NCBI GenBank assembly: GCA_027486725.1
Contig: JAIXOP010000011.1
Span: 1 to 64,000, forward strand
Reading direction: 5' to 3'
Length of the DNA: 64,000 nucleotides
Source of the DNA: Burkholderiales bacterium
Lineage (GTDB): Bacteria > Pseudomonadota > Gammaproteobacteria > Burkholderiales > Burkholderiaceae_A
Within the stretch, counting starts at the first letter, position 1, and each line of letters starts with the position of its first letter. The notes under the pieces are model-generated. The model did no database searches. It had not been told where the DNA came from and worked only from the letters and a program-made list of their open reading frames with translations. This document shows, in pieces, positions 29,603 through 36,819 of the stretch. A program made the position numbers and the translations under genes.

Positions 29603-30646
29603 TCAGGCCATGAGCACAGGCTCCTGGCGCCAGACAGCCCAAAGGGTTCGCAGCAGCAGGCCTGCGATCAGCAGGCTTGCCCAGGCCAGGGCCACGGCCT
29701 GCAGCCCCACCAGGCCAGGGTGCTGGGAAAAGTGCCCATAGGCGAGCACCGTCGCGGCAAAGGCCGCGCTGGGAAAGCTCAGGGCCCAAGAAGGCAGACC
29801 AAAGGGCAGGCGAATCCAGCGGGGTGCCTGGGTCAGCAAAAAGAGGGCGAAAAAGAGGGCCAGACCAAACAAGGCCTGCCCTGCCCCATCGAGCGGCAGG
29901 AGCAGGGTTGGGGTGGAGACCAAAGCGGGGGCCAGAACGGGAGTGGCCAAGGCAGGCGCCTGGCCCGTGAGCTGAATCCACGACAAAAAACCCACCGTGG
30001 GCGGGGCCAGAAAAATGGCCAGCGAGGGGGTCAGTGGGCTGGGCAGTGGGGGCTGAACAAACAAAAGCCTCGCCATCACCACCGTGAGCAGCAGCCCCCA
30101 AAAGAGAATTCCCACCGCAAAGAACCACCACGAGATCACCACAAACCCCAGAGGCACTCCGGCCAAGGGGATCACCACATTGGCCACCGCGGGGATGAAC
30201 CAGATCGGGCTCGCATGGGCGGGCTGAAGGCTTGGGCGGTGGACCCAGGCATTGAGCACCAGCAGCATGACCAGCAGCTGCAGGCTTGCACCCAGGGCCC
30301 AGAGCGGCTGCGCCAAGGCAGGGGCATGCACCAGAGCCACCGCACCCAACAGGGCGAACGACACCGACACCGCAGCAAAAAACGCCGACTTCACCGGATG
30401 CTGCCATTCGTCGCGGGCGCCGACGGGCCTGCGCATGAGCTTGCGCAGGTAGAGCAGCAGCAGGGTTGAAAACAGCCCCGCGGCAATGAGGCCCAGGGCG
30501 CGCGAGACATCGATGGCCCAGACCCCCAGCAGGGGCACGGCACGGGCCCAGGCCAGAGACAGCCCCGAGACTCCCATCACCATGGCAAAGGCCGGAATGG
30601 GCAGGGAACGAAGAAAAGGGCTCTGAAGCAGGGGCGTGCGGGCCAT
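29603..30646 (-). CDS. TehA/SLAC1-family membrane transporter
   Basis: The 347-residue, very hydrophobic protein has about ten predicted TM helices. The opening segment PIPAFAMVMGVSGLSLAWAR, the central SPIWFIPAVANVVIPLAGVP and the conserved Phe/Trp-rich helices match the voltage-dependent anion channel/TehA family (tellurite resistance and C4-dicarboxylate relatives). The substrate cannot be told. It is divergent from lexA; the 126 nt between them contain the SOS boxes, so SOS repression of this gene is possible. Confidence 0.82.
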   Translation of the reverse strand: MARTPLLQSPFLRSLPIPAFAMVMGVSGLSLAWARAVPLLGVWAIDVSRALGLIAAGLFSTLLLLYLRKLMRRPVGARDEWQHPVKSAFFAAVSVSFALLGAVALVHAPALAQPLWALGASLQLLVMLLVLNAWVHRPSLQPAHASPIWFIPAVANVVIPLAGVPLGFVVISWWFFAVGILFWGLLLTVVMARLLFVQPPLPSPLTPSLAIFLAPPTVGFLSWIQLTGQAPALATPVLAPALVSTPTLLLPLDGAGQALFGLALFFALFLLTQAPRWIRLPFGLPSWALSFPSAAFAATVLAYGHFSQHPGLVGLQAVALAWASLLIAGLLLRTLWAVWRQEPVLMA

Positions 30647-30690: not shown

Positions 30691-30746
30691 TTGATCAATT
30701 GCCCCAGAAGGATTACTGTATAAAAAAACAGTGTTAATCCATACAG
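30691..30746 (+). promoter_or_regulatory. lexA promoter with two abutting LexA (SOS) boxes
   Basis: 30716-30731 reads CTGTATAAAAAAACAG, a perfect CTG-N10-CAG SOS box. 30731-30746 reads GTGTTAATCCATACAG, a box with one changed base in the left half and a perfect right half; the two share base 30731. A candidate promoter, TTGATC at 30691-30696 and TACTGT at 30714-30719 with a 17-nt spacer, is overlapped by box 1. The start codon of lexA follows 26 nt after box 2. The boxes lie also upstream of the divergent transporter gene at 30646. Confidence 0.85.
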
Positions 30747-30772
30747 TACTTTTGCGAAAGCGGCCCAGGCCC

Positions 30773-31411
30773 ATGAAGAACCTCACCCCCCGCCAGCAGG
30801 AAATCCTGACCTTCATCCAGAAGCACATTCAGGATACTGGCTTTCCCCCCACCCGGGCCGAGATCTGCCGGGCCCTGGGCTTTCGCTCCCCCAATTCCGC
30901 CGAAGAGCATCTGCGCGCCCTCGCCCGCAAGGGGGCCATCAGCATGGCCGAGGGCACCTCTCGGGGAATTCGCCTCTCCGAAGGCTCCTTCAGCCCACAG
31001 GCCATGGCCAGCCTTCTGAGCCTGCCGCTCGTGGGCCGGGTCGCCGCAGGCTCTCCCATCCTCGCCCAGGAGCACATCGAGCAGCATTACCAGGTCGACC
31101 CGCAGCTCTTTTCCGAGCCGCCCGACTACCTGCTGCAGGTCCGCGGCCTGAGCATGAAAGACGCCGGCATTCTGCATGGCGATCTGTTGGCTGTTCGCCG
31201 CCTGGCCGGCGGCCTCTCCGATTGCCGCAACGGCCAGATCATCGTGGCCCGCCTCGAAGACGAGGTCACCGTCAAGCGCTTTGAGCGCTCGGGCAACGAG
31301 GTCCTCCTGCACCCCGAAAACCCCGACTTCTCGGTCATCCGCGTCGACCCGAGCCACGATGCCCTGCGCATCGAGGGCCGGGCGGTGGGCGTTATCCGCC
31401 CCTTCGCCTGA
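30773..31411 (+). CDS. lexA: LexA repressor
   Basis: LexA is the SOS repressor, self-cleaving when RecA is active. The 212-residue protein has the N-terminal winged helix ([40 protein letters not shown]), the cleavage dipeptide Ala-Gly in RVAAGSP (near residue 89), the nucleophile Ser in RGLSMKDAG and the general-base Lys in VTVKRFER. I chose ATG 30773 (MKNLTPRQQ). It is followed after 9 nt, with a GGAG ribosome site, by imuA, so lexA appears to lead the mutasome operon and to autoregulate it through the boxes at 30716-30746. Confidence 0.96.
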
Positions 31412-31420
31412 GGAGCCTCC

Positions 31421-32302
31421 ATGTCCGGACCCCCCATTTCTCTGGCCGACCTCCCCCTGGAGGCCCGGCACATCCGCAACCCACAGGCCATCCACCCCGA
31501 CCTCTGGCACGCCTCGGGCCTCAGCCAGGGCCTGGCCCAGGAGGTGGGCGGCACCCTGCAGCCCTCGGTGCCCAGTGGCCATGCGGCCCTCGATGCCCAG
31601 CTCCCCGGTGGAGGCTGGCCCAGCGGCTGCCTGACCGAGCTCATGGTGCGCGCCCTGGGCATGGGCGAGCTTCGCCTTCTGGCCCCAGCCCTGCGGCTTC
31701 TGGCGCAGTCGGGCAAACAAATCCTCATGCTCGCTCCCCCCAGCATGCCCTACGCCCCAGCCCTGGCTGCCCTGGGCATTCCGCCCGAGTCTTTCCTGGT
31801 GGTGCGGGCCAGCCGTGGGGCCGACCGGCTCTGGGCCATCGAGCAGTCCCTGAAGTCCAACAGCTTCGGTGCCCTGCTCGCCTGGCTTGATGCCGACGTT
31901 CCCCCCGAGGCCCTGCGCCGCTTCCACCTGGCAGCCCGGCAGGCCCGCGGACCCGTCTTTCTCTTTCGGCCCATGGCAGCCCAAAACCAGGCCTCCGCAG
32001 CCCCACTGCGCATGGCCCTCCTTCCGCGCGGCTATCCCGGTCTGGCCGTCCAGATCCTCAAGCGCCGCGGCCCCGTCTCCCTGGCCCCCATTCCCATTGC
32101 GGTCCCCCTGCCCCAGCGGGCCATGCGCCCGCTGGAAGACCGCATGGCGGGTGCCGGGGTCCCCCTCCAACCCAACCGATCCGCCCATGTCCCGTCGCAG
32201 CACACCCGCCCGGCTCTGGATCGCCTCCCACTTCCCGGCGGCCCGCTGCCCAGAGACTCAGCGCCCCATCCCGCCCGCATCGGTCCGTCTTTCACCCACT
32301 GA
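31421..32302 (+). CDS. imuA: Translesion synthesis accessory protein ImuA
   Basis: ImuA is the RecA-like accessory subunit of the ImuA-ImuB-DnaE2 mutasome used for damage-induced mutagenesis. The 293-residue protein has the family opening HPDLWHASGL and the region SGHAALDAQLPGGGWPSGCL, followed by LTELMVRALGMGELRLL. A usable Walker A lysine is not visible where RecA has one, as is common in ImuA. It follows lexA with 9 nt between and overlaps imuB by 116 nt in another frame; its own C-terminal 40 residues are a Pro/Arg-rich tail of low conservation. Confidence 0.88.
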   Translation: MSGPPISLADLPLEARHIRNPQAIHPDLWHASGLSQGLAQEVGGTLQPSVPSGHAALDAQLPGGGWPSGCLTELMVRALGMGELRLLAPALRLLAQSGKQILMLAPPSMPYAPALAALGIPPESFLVVRASRGADRLWAIEQSLKSNSFGALLAWLDADVPPEALRRFHLAARQARGPVFLFRPMAAQNQASAAPLRMALLPRGYPGLAVQILKRRGPVSLAPIPIAVPLPQRAMRPLEDRMAGAGVPLQPNRSAHVPSQHTRPALDRLPLPGGPLPRDSAPHPARIGPSFTH

Positions 32303-33569
32303 GGATTTCGCCGAGGTCCGCGAACGCATGGGCCAGTGGGCCCTGCAGTTCACGCCCGATGTGGCCCTGGGGCAGCACGAGCAGGTGCTCCTGCTCGAGG
32401 TCGCGGCCAGCCTGCGGCTCTGGGGTGGGCGCTCGGCACTGCTGAACCGGCTGGAGGCCGGCCTGGCCAGCCTCGGCTGGCCAGAGCCCCCCTGCTTTGG
32501 CCTGGGCACCACCCCCCGATCTGCAGAATGGCGCGCCCGTTGGCGGGCCGAAGGCCCCAGTGCCCTGCCCGAAGCACCCAGCCTGGGAGGCCTGCCCCTG
32601 CGGCTCATTCCAGAGGCACAGCCCCACCTGACTGTGCTGCAAGGCATGGGCCTCTGGCAGCTTCAAGACCTTCAGCCCCTGCCCCGGGCAGGGCTTCGAC
32701 GCCGCCTGGGCCCTGCCCTGCTGGAGGCCATCGATGCGGCCCTGGGCCGAGTGCCCGATCCGCGCCTGCCCCTGCAGGCCCCGGCAACGTTCTCGCAGTC
32801 CATGGAATTGCCCGAGCCCAGCGCCCAGATCGAGCTCCTGCTTCTGGGCATTGAGCGGCTCTGGCTGGCCTGCCAGGCCTGGCTCATCGGACTGCAGCTG
32901 GGGCTGGTTCGGCTGCGCCTGGTCTTTCATCAGGGCCGTCGGGAGCAGGACACCCAGGCGGTCCTGCTGGGCCTGTCCGAACCCACCCAGCAGAGCAGCC
33001 GAGTCATGCGCCTCGTTCGAGAGCGCCTTGGGGCCCTGCAGCTCCACCAGGCCGTGCATCGACTGAGCTGGGAGGTGGTCCAGGCCCAGCCCTGGGACGG
33101 GCAGACCCCCAGCCTTTTCCCCGGGCTGGCCCAGGCGCAGCAGGATCTTCGTGGCCTGTGCGAGCGGCTGGAGGCCCGCCTGGGGCCAGAGCAGGTCTGT
33201 GTGCTGAGCCTGCACGACAGCCACTGCCCCGAGGTGGCCGGACAGATGCATCCCCTGGCCATCGACCGGCCCCTGCCCAGGCCCTCCCCAAGCCGCTGGC
33301 CCGAGGCATTTCAGCGCTCTGCGGCGCTCCAGCCCCCCAGACCTCTGTGGCTGCTGGATGCCCCCCAGCCCCTTCGGATCCTGGGGCACCGACCCTGCCT
33401 GCGCGGCACCCCGCTGCGGCTGCGCATGGGCCCAGAGCGGATCGAATCGCAGTGGTGGGAGGCACCCCTGCGGCGCGACTACTTTGTGGCCGAGTGCGAG
33501 GACCAGCGTCTGGTCTGGATCTACCGCACCCCCGAGCACGCCTGGTTTTTGCATGGCCACTTCGGCTAG
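32187..33569 (+). CDS. imuB: Mutasome protein ImuB (inactive Y-family polymerase homologue)
   Basis: ImuB is a catalytically dead relative of Y-family polymerases that bridges DnaE2 to the sliding clamp. The ATG at 32187 (MSRRSTPARLWIASHFPAAR) gives 460 residues. The acidic catalytic residues of Pol IV (such as its N-terminal DMD) have no counterpart, while the fold-type segments SLRLWGGRSALLNRL and GLGTTPRSAEWRAR and the little-finger region are present. A candidate clamp-binding motif QTPSLF lies at about residues 306-311. The gene overlaps imuA by 116 nt and dnaE2 by 17 nt. Confidence 0.88.
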   Translation: MSRRSTPARLWIASHFPAARCPETQRPIPPASVRLSPTEDFAEVRERMGQWALQFTPDVALGQHEQVLLLEVAASLRLWGGRSALLNRLEAGLASLGWPEPPCFGLGTTPRSAEWRARWRAEGPSALPEAPSLGGLPLRLIPEAQPHLTVLQGMGLWQLQDLQPLPRAGLRRRLGPALLEAIDAALGRVPDPRLPLQAPATFSQSMELPEPSAQIELLLLGIERLWLACQAWLIGLQLGLVRLRLVFHQGRREQDTQAVLLGLSEPTQQSSRVMRLVRERLGALQLHQAVHRLSWEVVQAQPWDGQTPSLFPGLAQAQQDLRGLCERLEARLGPEQVCVLSLHDSHCPEVAGQMHPLAIDRPLPRPSPSRWPEAFQRSAALQPPRPLWLLDAPQPLRILGHRPCLRGTPLRLRMGPERIESQWWEAPLRRDYFVAECEDQRLVWIYRTPEHAWFLHGHFG

Positions 33570-36500
33570 CCCCACGGCGGGGGTTCCCGCCTACGCAGAG
33601 CTCTGTGCCCAGAGCTGCTTCTCGTTTCTGCGCGGGGCCAGCGAGCCCGATGCCCTGGTGGCCCGGGCCGCCGAACTCGGCTACACCGCCATCGCCATCG
33701 CCGACGAGGCGAGTGTCTCGGGCAGTGTCCGTGCACACTTGGCCGCCCGAGACTGGCCGGGCCTGCGGCTGCTGCACGGGGCGCGCTTTGCCCTGGCCGA
33801 CCGGCCGCTGGAGTTCGTCGCGCTGGTGCGCAACCGGCAGGGCTGGGCGCAGCTCTGCGGCCTGATCAGCCAGGCCCGCCGCAACGCCGCCAAGGGCCAG
33901 GCACGGCTGGAATCGGCCATGCTGGAGGCATGCCCCCTGCCCGACTGCAGCCTCATCTGGCTGCCCAGCCCCGAGCAGCCCGAGACCGACCTGCACACCC
34001 AGGGCCAATGGCTGCGGTCGTTGGCGGGTGACCGCCTGTGGCTGGGGGCCAGCCTGCACCTGCGGGCCGACGACCGCGCCTGGCTGCACCAGCTCCAGGC
34101 GCTGAGCGCCCTGCTGCGCATTCCGGGCGTGGCCTGCGGGCAGGTGCTCATGGCACGGCGCAGCGACAAGCCCCTGGCCGACCTGCTCACCGCGATTCGG
34201 CTGGGCCGCCCCTTGGCCGAGTGTGGCCAACAGCTGGCCTTGAATGCCGAGCGCCACCTCCGCTCCCGCCTTCAGCTCGCGCAGCTGTTTCCCGAGGGCT
34301 GGATGGCCGCCACCCAGCAGGTCGCCCAGTCCTGCAGCTTTTCGCTCGACGAACTCCGCTACGAATACCCCGACGAGATTGTTCCAGCGGGGCTCAGCCC
34401 CACCCAATGGCTGCGCCACCTCACCGAGGAAGGCCTGCGGCACCGCTACCCCGCGGCGCAATTTCCAGAAGGCATCCCACCATCGGTGCGGCGACAGGTC
34501 GAACATGAGCTCGCCCTCATCGCCGAGCTTCGCTATGAGCCCTACTTCCTCACCGTCTACGACATCGTGGCCTTTGCGCGTGGGCAGGGCATCCTCTGCC
34601 AGGGCCGAGGCTCGGCGGCGAATTCTGCGGTCTGCTACTGCCTGGGCATCACCGAGGTCGATCCCGCGCGCATGAGCATGTTGTTCGAGCGATTCATCTC
34701 GCGCGAACGCAACGAGCCCCCCGACATCGACATCGACTTCGAGCACCAGCGCCGCGAAGAGGTCATTCAATACCTCTACCAAAAATATGGGCGCGAGCGG
34801 GCTGCGCTGGCAGCAGCCCTCATCTGCTACCGGCCTCGCTCGGCCCTGCGCGATGCAGGCAAGGCCCTGGGCATTGCGGCACCCTGGATCGATGCGGCTG
34901 CCGAGGGCCGCAGCTGGTGGGAGGGCCACGAGATCCGTCCAGACCGCCTGCAAGCAGGGCTTGAAGAGGCCGAGGCGAGGCTGTCTGCCCTGCCCCAGGC
35001 CAGGCCCCTGCCGCCCCTGCCCAGCCCATCGGCCCTAGCCCTCTGGGCCCGCATGGCCGGTGAGCTCCTGGGGCTGCCCCGGCATCTCTCCCAGCATGTC
35101 GGTGGCTTTGTCATCGCCCGCCATCGGCTCTCCGATCTGGTCCCTGTCGAAAATGCCGCCATGGCCGAGCGCAGCGTCATCCAGTGGGACAAAGACGACA
35201 TCGACGCCCTGGGCCTTCTGAAGGTGGATGTGCTGGCCCTCGGAATGCTCTCGGCCCTGCGCCGCGCCCTGGCCTTCATCGGCCAGACCAAGCGGGGATT
35301 GCCGGGCCCCATGCCCATGCAGGACATCCCGCCCGAGGACCCCGAGACCTACGCGATGATCTCCAAGGCCGACACCGTGGGCGTGTTCCAAATCGAGTCG
35401 CGGGCCCAGATGAGCATGCTTCCCCGCATGCGTCCCGCCTGCTTCTACGATCTGGTGATTGAGGTCGCGATCGTTCGTCCAGGCCCCATCCAGGGGGGAA
35501 TGATTCACCCCTACCTGCGCCGGCGCCAGGGGCTCGAGGCGGTGGACTACCCAGGGCCCGAGGTGCGAGAGGCCCTGGCCCGCACCCTTGGGGTGCCCAT
35601 CTTCCAAGAGCAGGTCATGCAGCTGGCCGTGCTGGCCGCGGGCTTTACCCCCGGCGAGGCCGATCAGCTGCGGCGAGCCATGGCCGCCTGGAAGCGCAAG
35701 GGAGGCTTAGGGCCCTTCCATCAGAAGGTGGTCGAGGGCATGACCTCCCGCGGATACTCGGCCGAGTTCGCCGAGCGGGTCTTTGCCCAGATCGAAGGCT
35801 TTGGCGAGTACGGCTTTCCCGAGAGCCATGCCGCCAGCTTTGCCTTGCTCGTCTATGTGAGCTGCTGGATCAAGAGGCACCATCCCGATGCATTTCTGGC
35901 GGCCCTGCTCAACAGCCAGCCGATGGGGTTCTATGCGCCAGCCCAGCTCATCCGCGATGCCCAGTCGCATGGAGTGGTGGTGCTCCCCGTCGATGTGCAG
36001 GCCAGCGAGGCCCAGAGCCATCTGGAGCCGCTGCAAGCGCAAGAGACGCCGGGAGGGTCTGGCCCCTGGGCGGTGCGTCTGGGCCTGGACCGCATCGGCC
36101 AGCTGTCCGGCGAGGCGGCCCAGCGCATTGTGGCGGCCCGGGCTGCGGGGCCATTCGAGGGGGTCGAAGACCTGGCCCACCGCGCCCAGCTCGATCGGCG
36201 AGACCTGCAGGCCCTGGCTGCATCGGGAGCCCTGAGCGGCCTGTCGGGCCACCGCCACCAGGCGCAATGGGAGGCCAGCGGCGTGCATCGGCTCAAGGGC
36301 CTGCTCAGCCGGGTTCCCAGCACCGAGCTGCCCATCGAGGCCGATGCCCTGCCCAGGCCCACGGATGCCGATGATGTGATGAACGACTACGCCAGCCTGG
36401 GGCTTAGCCTGGGGCAGCACCCCATGGCCTTCGTGCGCAGCCACCTGCGGCAGCTATGCCGCAGCCAAACGGCCGCCGAACTGCAGAAGTGTGCAGACCG

Positions 36501-36819
36501 CGAACTGGTGCGGGCCAGCGGCATCGTCACCCACCGACAGCGGCCAGGCACAGCCCGAGGCCTCATCTTCATGAGCATCGAAGACGAGACTGGGAGCATT
36601 CAGCTGGTGGTGCCGCCCGAGACCCTGGAGCGCTGCAAATGGGCCGTGCTGCAGGGCCAGATGGTCACCGCCTATGGCCAATGGCAGCGGCCCCACCGGC
36701 TCGGGGCCGAGGCCTCGGCCAAGACCAGCACCATCTGGGTCGGTCGGCTCGAGGACCACACGGCAGTCCTGCACCGGGTTTTGGGGGAAGTGCGCACCAC
36801 CTCGCGCGACTTCCACTAG
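33553..36819 (+). CDS. dnaE2: Error-prone DNA polymerase DnaE2
   Basis: DnaE2 is a C-family polymerase alpha subunit for translesion synthesis and induced mutagenesis. The ATG at 33553 (MATSASPTAGVPAYAELCAQ) gives 1088 residues. The PHP domain starts with AELCAQSCFSFLRGASEPD; the polymerase signature PDIDIDFEHQRREEVIQYLY and GRGSAANSAVCYCLGITEVD are typical of DnaE2 rather than DnaE1. An OB domain (GIVTHRQRPGTARGLIFMSI) is near the C-terminus. It overlaps imuB, completing the lexA-imuA-imuB-dnaE2 operon, and its stop overlaps the convergent NlpC/P60 gene by 4 nt. Confidence 0.95.
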   Translation: MATSASPTAGVPAYAELCAQSCFSFLRGASEPDALVARAAELGYTAIAIADEASVSGSVRAHLAARDWPGLRLLHGARFALADRPLEFVALVRNRQGWAQLCGLISQARRNAAKGQARLESAMLEACPLPDCSLIWLPSPEQPETDLHTQGQWLRSLAGDRLWLGASLHLRADDRAWLHQLQALSALLRIPGVACGQVLMARRSDKPLADLLTAIRLGRPLAECGQQLALNAERHLRSRLQLAQLFPEGWMAATQQVAQSCSFSLDELRYEYPDEIVPAGLSPTQWLRHLTEEGLRHRYPAAQFPEGIPPSVRRQVEHELALIAELRYEPYFLTVYDIVAFARGQGILCQGRGSAANSAVCYCLGITEVDPARMSMLFERFISRERNEPPDIDIDFEHQRREEVIQYLYQKYGRERAALAAALICYRPRSALRDAGKALGIAAPWIDAAAEGRSWWEGHEIRPDRLQAGLEEAEARLSALPQARPLPPLPSPSALALWARMAGELLGLPRHLSQHVGGFVIARHRLSDLVPVENAAMAERSVIQWDKDDIDALGLLKVDVLALGMLSALRRALAFIGQTKRGLPGPMPMQDIPPEDPETYAMISKADTVGVFQIESRAQMSMLPRMRPACFYDLVIEVAIVRPGPIQGGMIHPYLRRRQGLEAVDYPGPEVREALARTLGVPIFQEQVMQLAVLAAGFTPGEADQLRRAMAAWKRKGGLGPFHQKVVEGMTSRGYSAEFAERVFAQIEGFGEYGFPESHAASFALLVYVSCWIKRHHPDAFLAALLNSQPMGFYAPAQLIRDAQSHGVVVLPVDVQASEAQSHLEPLQAQETPGGSGPWAVRLGLDRIGQLSGEAAQRIVAARAAGPFEGVEDLAHRAQLDRRDLQALAASGALSGLSGHRHQAQWEASGVHRLKGLLSRVPSTELPIEADALPRPTDADDVMNDYASLGLSLGQHPMAFVRSHLRQLCRSQTAAELQKCADRELVRASGIVTHRQRPGTARGLIFMSIEDETGSIQLVVPPETLERCKWAVLQGQMVTAYGQWQRPHRLGAEASAKTSTIWVGRLEDHTAVLHRVLGEVRTTSRDFH

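Follow-up and report, generated by a model that had tools for sequence, protein, structure and literature searches.

We analyzed a 64,000-nucleotide stretch of the Burkholderiales assembly GCA_027486725.1 (family Burkholderiaceae_A), referred to here as the window, and focus on its lexA gene and the imuA-imuB-dnaE2 mutasome cassette that follows it. Based on the observations outlined below, the window very probably carries an SOS control operon in which what is apparently the only LexA of the organism controls lexA-imuA-imuB-dnaE2 from its own promoter. The steps of the model (repression, self-cleavage, joint output, and shut-off) are taken from established SOS biology. In this model, LexA would bind a box over its own -10 element, plus a weaker abutting box, and keep all four genes off; upon damage, RecA filaments would trigger LexA self-cleavage; a single transcript would then supply newly made repressor along with ImuA, ImuB, and DnaE2; and the new LexA would shut both the operon and recA once the filaments are gone. 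Cotranscription, LexA binding, induction, and mutagenesis are predicted here from sequence. An earlier sequence-only reading of this DNA had proposed one autoregulated operon of repressor and mutasome, and our analysis supports that proposal as the best reading. Operons of this type, with lexA leading imuA-imuB-dnaE2, have already been published, and the window is a further case.

The predicted operon and its products

The four genes (Table 1) lie on the plus strand and are tightly packed: lexA and imuA are separated by 9 nt, imuA and imuB overlap by 116 nt, and imuB and dnaE2 overlap by 17 nt. The sequence-only reading had placed the cassette 9 nt behind a canonical lexA, and both coordinates and domains bear this out. 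In a computed scan, the lexA-imuA junction showed nothing resembling a terminator.

Table 1. Features of the predicted operon (window coordinates)
Feature	Position	Strand	Description
Inferred promoter	30691-30719	+	TTGATC 30691-30696, 17-bp spacer, TACTGT 30714-30719
SOS box 1, CTGTATAAAAAAACAG	30716-30731		Perfect CTG-N10-CAG, over the inferred -10
SOS box 2, GTGTTAATCCATACAG	30731-30746		Imperfect GTG-N10-CAG, 15 bp downstream of box 1
lexA	30773-31411	+	ATG 30773, stop 31411; 212 aa, E. coli-type SOS repressor; PF01726, PF00717
imuA	31421-32302	+	293 aa; NF033429 197.9 bits, cut-off 150
imuB	32187-33569	+	460 aa; related to Y-family polymerases but lacking the catalytic motifs
dnaE2 (imuC)	33553-36819	+	1088 aa, error-prone C-family polymerase; NF004225 1365 bits, cut-off 939

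The window LexA scores 232 bits on TIGR00498 and matches a solved LexA structure in a sequence search with an E value of 2e-69; its recognition segment is close to the FRSPNAAEEHL of this best-matching solved LexA. Residues A92-G93, S127, and K168, which we take to be the Ala-Gly cleavage site and the Ser/Lys dyad, are unchanged in 25 aligned LexA proteins; the window protein has the helix-turn-helix, cleavage site, and dyad of an E. coli-type LexA. An open reading frame list had suggested a GTG at 30731 as the start of lexA; we rejected it, as the starts of relatives align with the ATG given in Table 1. ImuA and DnaE2 both exceed the curated NCBIfam cut-offs, and DnaE2 contains the motifs PDIDIDF (residue 390) and KVDVL (residue 557). 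ImuB, which is discussed further below, has a candidate clamp motif, QTPSLFPG, recognized by eye.

Putative promoter and SOS boxes

The comparison set comprised 26 genomes of the family, order-level genomes from which 11 lexA loci were fetched, and 80 named lexA loci. A consensus promoter scan returned no sigma-70 site, and the promoter call therefore rests on conservation: TTGNNN-N17-TACTGT is kept in 18 of the 20 family lexA promoters that have upstream sequence, with the box beginning within TACTGT. In the two exceptions (G009 and G014), the first hexamer or its distance differs; the lexA gene of G016 lies too near a contig end for promoter scoring. All 20 promoters have a box at the position of box 1, that of G011 being one base off (CTG-N10-CAC). 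The sequence-only reading had placed the boxes over the likely -10, and box 1 does overlap the conserved TACTGT.

Sites were scored with a 20-bp matrix built from 41 lexA and recA boxes of relatives, with the window's lexA and its own recA excluded. Across all positions of the window, box 1 ranks first (29.8 bits), box 2 second (13.7 bits), and the third site reaches 2.3 bits; the pair described in the sequence-only reading, one perfect and one imperfect box sharing a single base, thus holds the top two scores. The shared base is the G at 30731. Because this letter serves both as the G of CAG and in the place of the C of CTG, one of the two boxes must be imperfect. Bare counting of CTG-N10-CAG is uninformative at this G+C content (25 found in the window versus 36.7 +/- 6.4 expected).

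Does box 2 have a function, or is it a chance match? Its score is not independent, since five of its bases are common to box 1, and a comparable second site (>7.5 bits) is absent from 18 of the 19 other family lexA promoters scored. Pairs spaced by 15 bp are also rare among the named loci, which are the best LexA matches among those listed and not a fair sample: 57 of the 80 have two full upstream boxes, 53 of these 57 spaced at 17 to 21 bp, and only one (L107) has a 15-bp pair, a weak one. On the other hand, box 2 outscores the third-ranked site in 64 kb by 11 bits, and G011, the sole exception among the family promoters, has a separate 15-bp pair with the strengths swapped, its first box imperfect and its second perfect (the G011 box being one of the 41 sites on which the matrix was trained). 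Furthermore, LexA binds two overlapping sites that cover the promoter in colicin operators, a layout broadly like that of the window with a colicin as the gene controlled (PMC2994835, PMC4482635). We lean toward a functional box 2, while giving the chance explanation a substantial minority share. The abutting box is a lineage-specific addition rather than a defining feature of the operon.

An apparently sole LexA and its probable regulon

Whether this lexA is the only one of the genome was the main point raised by the sequence-only reading. The best named LexA relatives among the matches listed suggest a Burkholderiales-like bacterium, and its genome is small. The assembly (1.66 Mb in 18 contigs, with the window within contig 6) has an estimated completeness of 83.7% and contains one LexA DNA-binding domain. 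A homologue search found no second DnaE in it, and hence no replicative one; five of five near-complete relatives have a second DnaE of ~30% identity, which we regard as the replicative DnaE1. The lack most likely reflects a gap in the assembly and calls for caution over absences. With the replicative DnaE missing and the assembly incomplete, the genome alone could not settle the matter, and the soleness of lexA leans on relatives. LexA occurs once in 21 of the 26 family genomes and twice in none; genomes G002, G011, G013, and G015, each 98-99% complete, have one apiece. In G001 and G002, the sole LexA was counted from two matched pieces of one open frame, and S24-only matches in G024 and G025 correspond to UmuD-like genes, not LexA.

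A lexA-type box also stands before the organism's own recA (C9:152524), with a matrix score of 31.4 bits compared with 29.8 bits at lexA, and CTG-N10-CAG is present at both genes. The same type of box was found upstream of recA in all 25 family recA loci; G023 yielded no recA. Given that recA carries the box type of the operon and that no second LexA was found, the window LexA is most likely the repressor of the SOS response as a whole, beyond the cassette. As far as the data reach, the question is thus answered in favor of a sole, master LexA, with no other found in the assembly or in the 26 family genomes.

Across the family, strict boxes gave 52 strand matches in the 26 genomes versus 18 for a reversed-pattern control. 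These fall at 43 distinct places once palindromes are merged by hand, which we assign as follows: 14 at lexA, 17 at recA (including one next to a fragment of that gene), 1 at imuA of G011, 1 at umuD of G024, 4 at toxin-antitoxin pairs, and 1 at an integrase gene. Five have no clear gene assignment, including G011:C1:644782, the neighborhood of which was not inspected.

The sequence-only reading had drawn a parallel with pseudomonads, in which cassettes led by a second lexA are known. Could the window LexA likewise be a LexA2, local to the cassette, with another LexA running the main regulon? In Pseudomonas putida, lexA2-imuA-imuB-dnaE2 has the gene order of the window and is reported to be transcribed as one unit that its own LexA controls, in an organism with two LexA proteins and two regulons (PMC3901139). 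In Stutzerimonas nitrititolerans (G070), too, a second LexA leads imuA, and in one linked order-level genome (G030) we found a second LexA-like protein that is 29% identical to the window LexA along its length. Here, in contrast to P. putida, a single LexA of the E. coli type was found, and its type of box recurs at recA. The comparison with G070 is also one of contrast: its main LexA is 58% identical to that of the window, whereas the imuA-leading second copy is 46% identical, has the divergent recognition segment FASRSVARKHI, and has GGAGTACAAATGTACTCC before its start, where 150 nt of upstream sequence contain no CTG-N10-CAG. The other three pseudomonads searched have one LexA each. For the window LexA, we found neither a second lexA beside it, in the assembly (84% complete) or in the 26 family genomes, nor, judged against G070 alone, a divergent recognition helix and operator. 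The pseudomonad parallel does not transfer, the Stutzerimonas cassette LexA being a second, divergent paralogue, and we regard a LexA2-type role for the window LexA as extremely unlikely.

Conservation of the arrangement

Returning to the proposed operon under a sole LexA, the linkage is widely kept in the family. Both imuA and imuB lie behind lexA in 20 of 21 family loci, the window included and G024 being the exception, and dnaE2 comes next in 19 of these 20, the missing one (G021) being cut by a contig end. In G016 a contig end falls inside dnaE2, and in G005 imuA was matched in two reading frames, a possible frameshift.

An alternative is that lexA and imuA-imuB-dnaE2, although neighbors, are for the most part expressed separately, the level of the mutasome being set by a promoter or a processing event ahead of imuA. 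G011 has an imuA with its own SOS promoter, and in three order-level loci (L022, L026, and L029) the projected lexA-imuA gap is 554-748 nt. However, the gap in the window is the short, terminator-free one described above, no further box in the window scores above 2.3 bits, and the projected gap is <=10 nt in all family loci with imuA behind lexA except G011. We therefore consider largely separate units in the window quite unlikely, and a single operon remains our preferred reading.

Beyond the family, imuA lies behind lexA in 7 of the 11 order-level loci, with projected gaps of -31 to 748 nt, and in 6 of the 80 named loci (73 lack the linkage and one is too short). Of these 13 linked nonfamily genomes, 12 have one LexA domain above the Pfam cut-off; the remaining one is G030, whose second domain scores 23.9 bits versus a cut-off of 23.7. 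A cassette-leading LexA with no clear second LexA is thus not special to this family. On a quick LexA tree, which splits the family, lexA-imuA linkage changes 8 times compared with a shuffled mean of 28.7; the linkage appears clustered and altered several times.

In the published record, PMC8072749 lists lexA-imuA-imuB-dnaE2 operons for Pseudomonas, Xanthomonas, Dechloromonas, Methylococcus, and Acidithiobacillus. Those of Dechloromonas aromatica, Methylococcus capsulatus, and Acidithiobacillus ferrooxidans are like the window in gene content and order, with lexA first; the differences are that here an entire family yielded no second lexA, the legend of their Fig. 1 being silent on lexA number, and that box 2 is an extra. 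In the literature on this arrangement, we found no statement on this family, which is not to claim that none exists.

Natural contrasts within the family

A few relatives depart from the arrangement. Matches to the IMS family (DinB/UmuC) occur in only 2 of the 26 family genomes, G024 and G025, and in none of the 10 with completeness of at least 90% and contamination of at most 5%; as ImuB escapes this search, the count covers just the DinB/UmuC types. In G024, lexA is kept with no cassette behind it, and umuD, a GIY-YIG-like gene, and umuC stand in a row with a perfect box in front. In G025, in which no lexA was found, the same trio has a box that is one base off. A review describes UmuDC and ImuABC as mutually exclusive (PMC3901139). 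The rows lie at L202:936-3480 (G024) and in L206 (G025), and the nuclease, of 283 aa, was named GIY-YIG by eye.

The genome of G011 is a single contig, and in it lexA is separated from imuA by a YafQ/RelB toxin-antitoxin pair on the opposite strand (L154:2254-3061). The imuA of this genome has its own promoter, TTGCAG-N17-TACTGT with an SOS box, much like the lexA promoter. SOS control was thus kept or rebuilt after the operon was split, which argues that it matters.

Points on the other side

Several observations weigh against our account of a sole LexA in control of a mutasome operon. Five of the 26 family genomes have no LexA at all (these are 75-86% complete), and a second lexA could be hidden in the window's own assembly as the replicative DnaE probably is. 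The search for further boxes proposed in the sequence-only reading had a mixed outcome: it found the recA box, but strict-box strand matches in the organism's own genome are not clearly above the reversed-pattern control (4+4 versus 3+3 in one count and 4+4 versus 4+4 in a second). The regulon assignment rests on conservation, not on these counts. Terminator-like sites occur inside imuA, imuB, and dnaE2, three in all compared with a shuffled level of 2.2. The contrast offered by G024 and G025 is blurred by an estimated contamination of 6-7% in each, and imuA was not searched for elsewhere in either genome.

Finally, the window ImuB has no Pfam or NCBIfam match, and the Pfam IMS model misses it. 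Among 21 aligned sequences, 4 match IMS and 5 match IMS_C at an E value of <=0.1, the window protein not being among them, and no solved relative was found by sequence. The identity of ImuB rests on gene position, aligned homologues, and a Foldseek search with a low-confidence AlphaFold2 model (pLDDT, 67.8; pTM, 0.43). In this search, Y-family polymerases come out on top (best E value, 2e-8), with low TM scores of 0.19-0.32 among the best 50 of 422 matches, and the titles that name an enzyme, among the matches listed, are those of Y-family polymerases. By eye, WIASHFPAA and LEVAASLRLWG of the window ImuB occupy the places of VDCNNFYVS and SIDECFIDL in the UmuC of G024, the acidic motifs of which are missing from the window protein.

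What a shared promoter would mean

In E. coli, lexA is transcribed from one promoter and umuDC from another, so repressor and mutagenic polymerase can be regulated separately; in the window, the two appear to share one. The LexA type and box type are the same in both, and E. coli lexA has two boxes (PMC2994835). If the operon reading is true, promoter strength cannot set the mutasome apart from lexA, and damage would be expected to turn on repressor and mutagenesis together. Does restraining mutagenesis matter? The family would offer a natural test, with G024 and G025, which carry umuC, and the separately promoted imuA of G011 as further contrasts.

More tentatively, and with the balance of our judgment on the negative side, we speculate that this is a stripped-down SOS response that gives mutagenesis no separate timing: in most family genomes, the sole translesion system (among DinB/UmuC and ImuABC, the types searched for) would be tied to the promoter that drives the single repressor identified. 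Were this true, the mutasome would be expressed early and at a basal level, as lexA is, in contrast to the tight control of E. coli umuDC, for which no basal expression is detectable whereas lexA and recA both show it (PMC2994835). A second box would then be added 15 bp away where tighter control is favored, as seen twice, in the window genome and in G011.

Other observations

A SLAC1/TehA-like transporter gene (window 29603-30646, minus strand) diverges from lexA, its start ~70 nt from box 1; of the 20 family loci retrieved, 14 have this gene beside lexA, and LexA might touch it too. The tail of the organism's own RecA (L033:1555-2709) is charged and has repeated DKADKL units, and full-length family matches to this 384-residue protein stop at residues 334-368. 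On contig 7 of the same assembly, an SOS-like box of 23.1 bits (L167:1501-1520) lies 36 nt upstream of a phage-type integrase gene and may be due to chance.

In three sister-genus genomes, perfect TACTGT-N9-CAGTA boxes stand 55-99 nt upstream of toxin-antitoxin pairs. Two precede hicAB in G011 (L200:1505-1524, pair identified by Pfam, and L201:1525-1544, pair identified by 95% DNA identity to L200), one precedes hicAB in G017 (L197:1501-1520, HicA by Pfam and HicB by eye), and one precedes a HI1420-type pair in G015 (L199:1549-1568). Another ATG lies between box and toxin gene, and in some there is also a palindrome, recognized by eye, that is possibly the pair's own operator.

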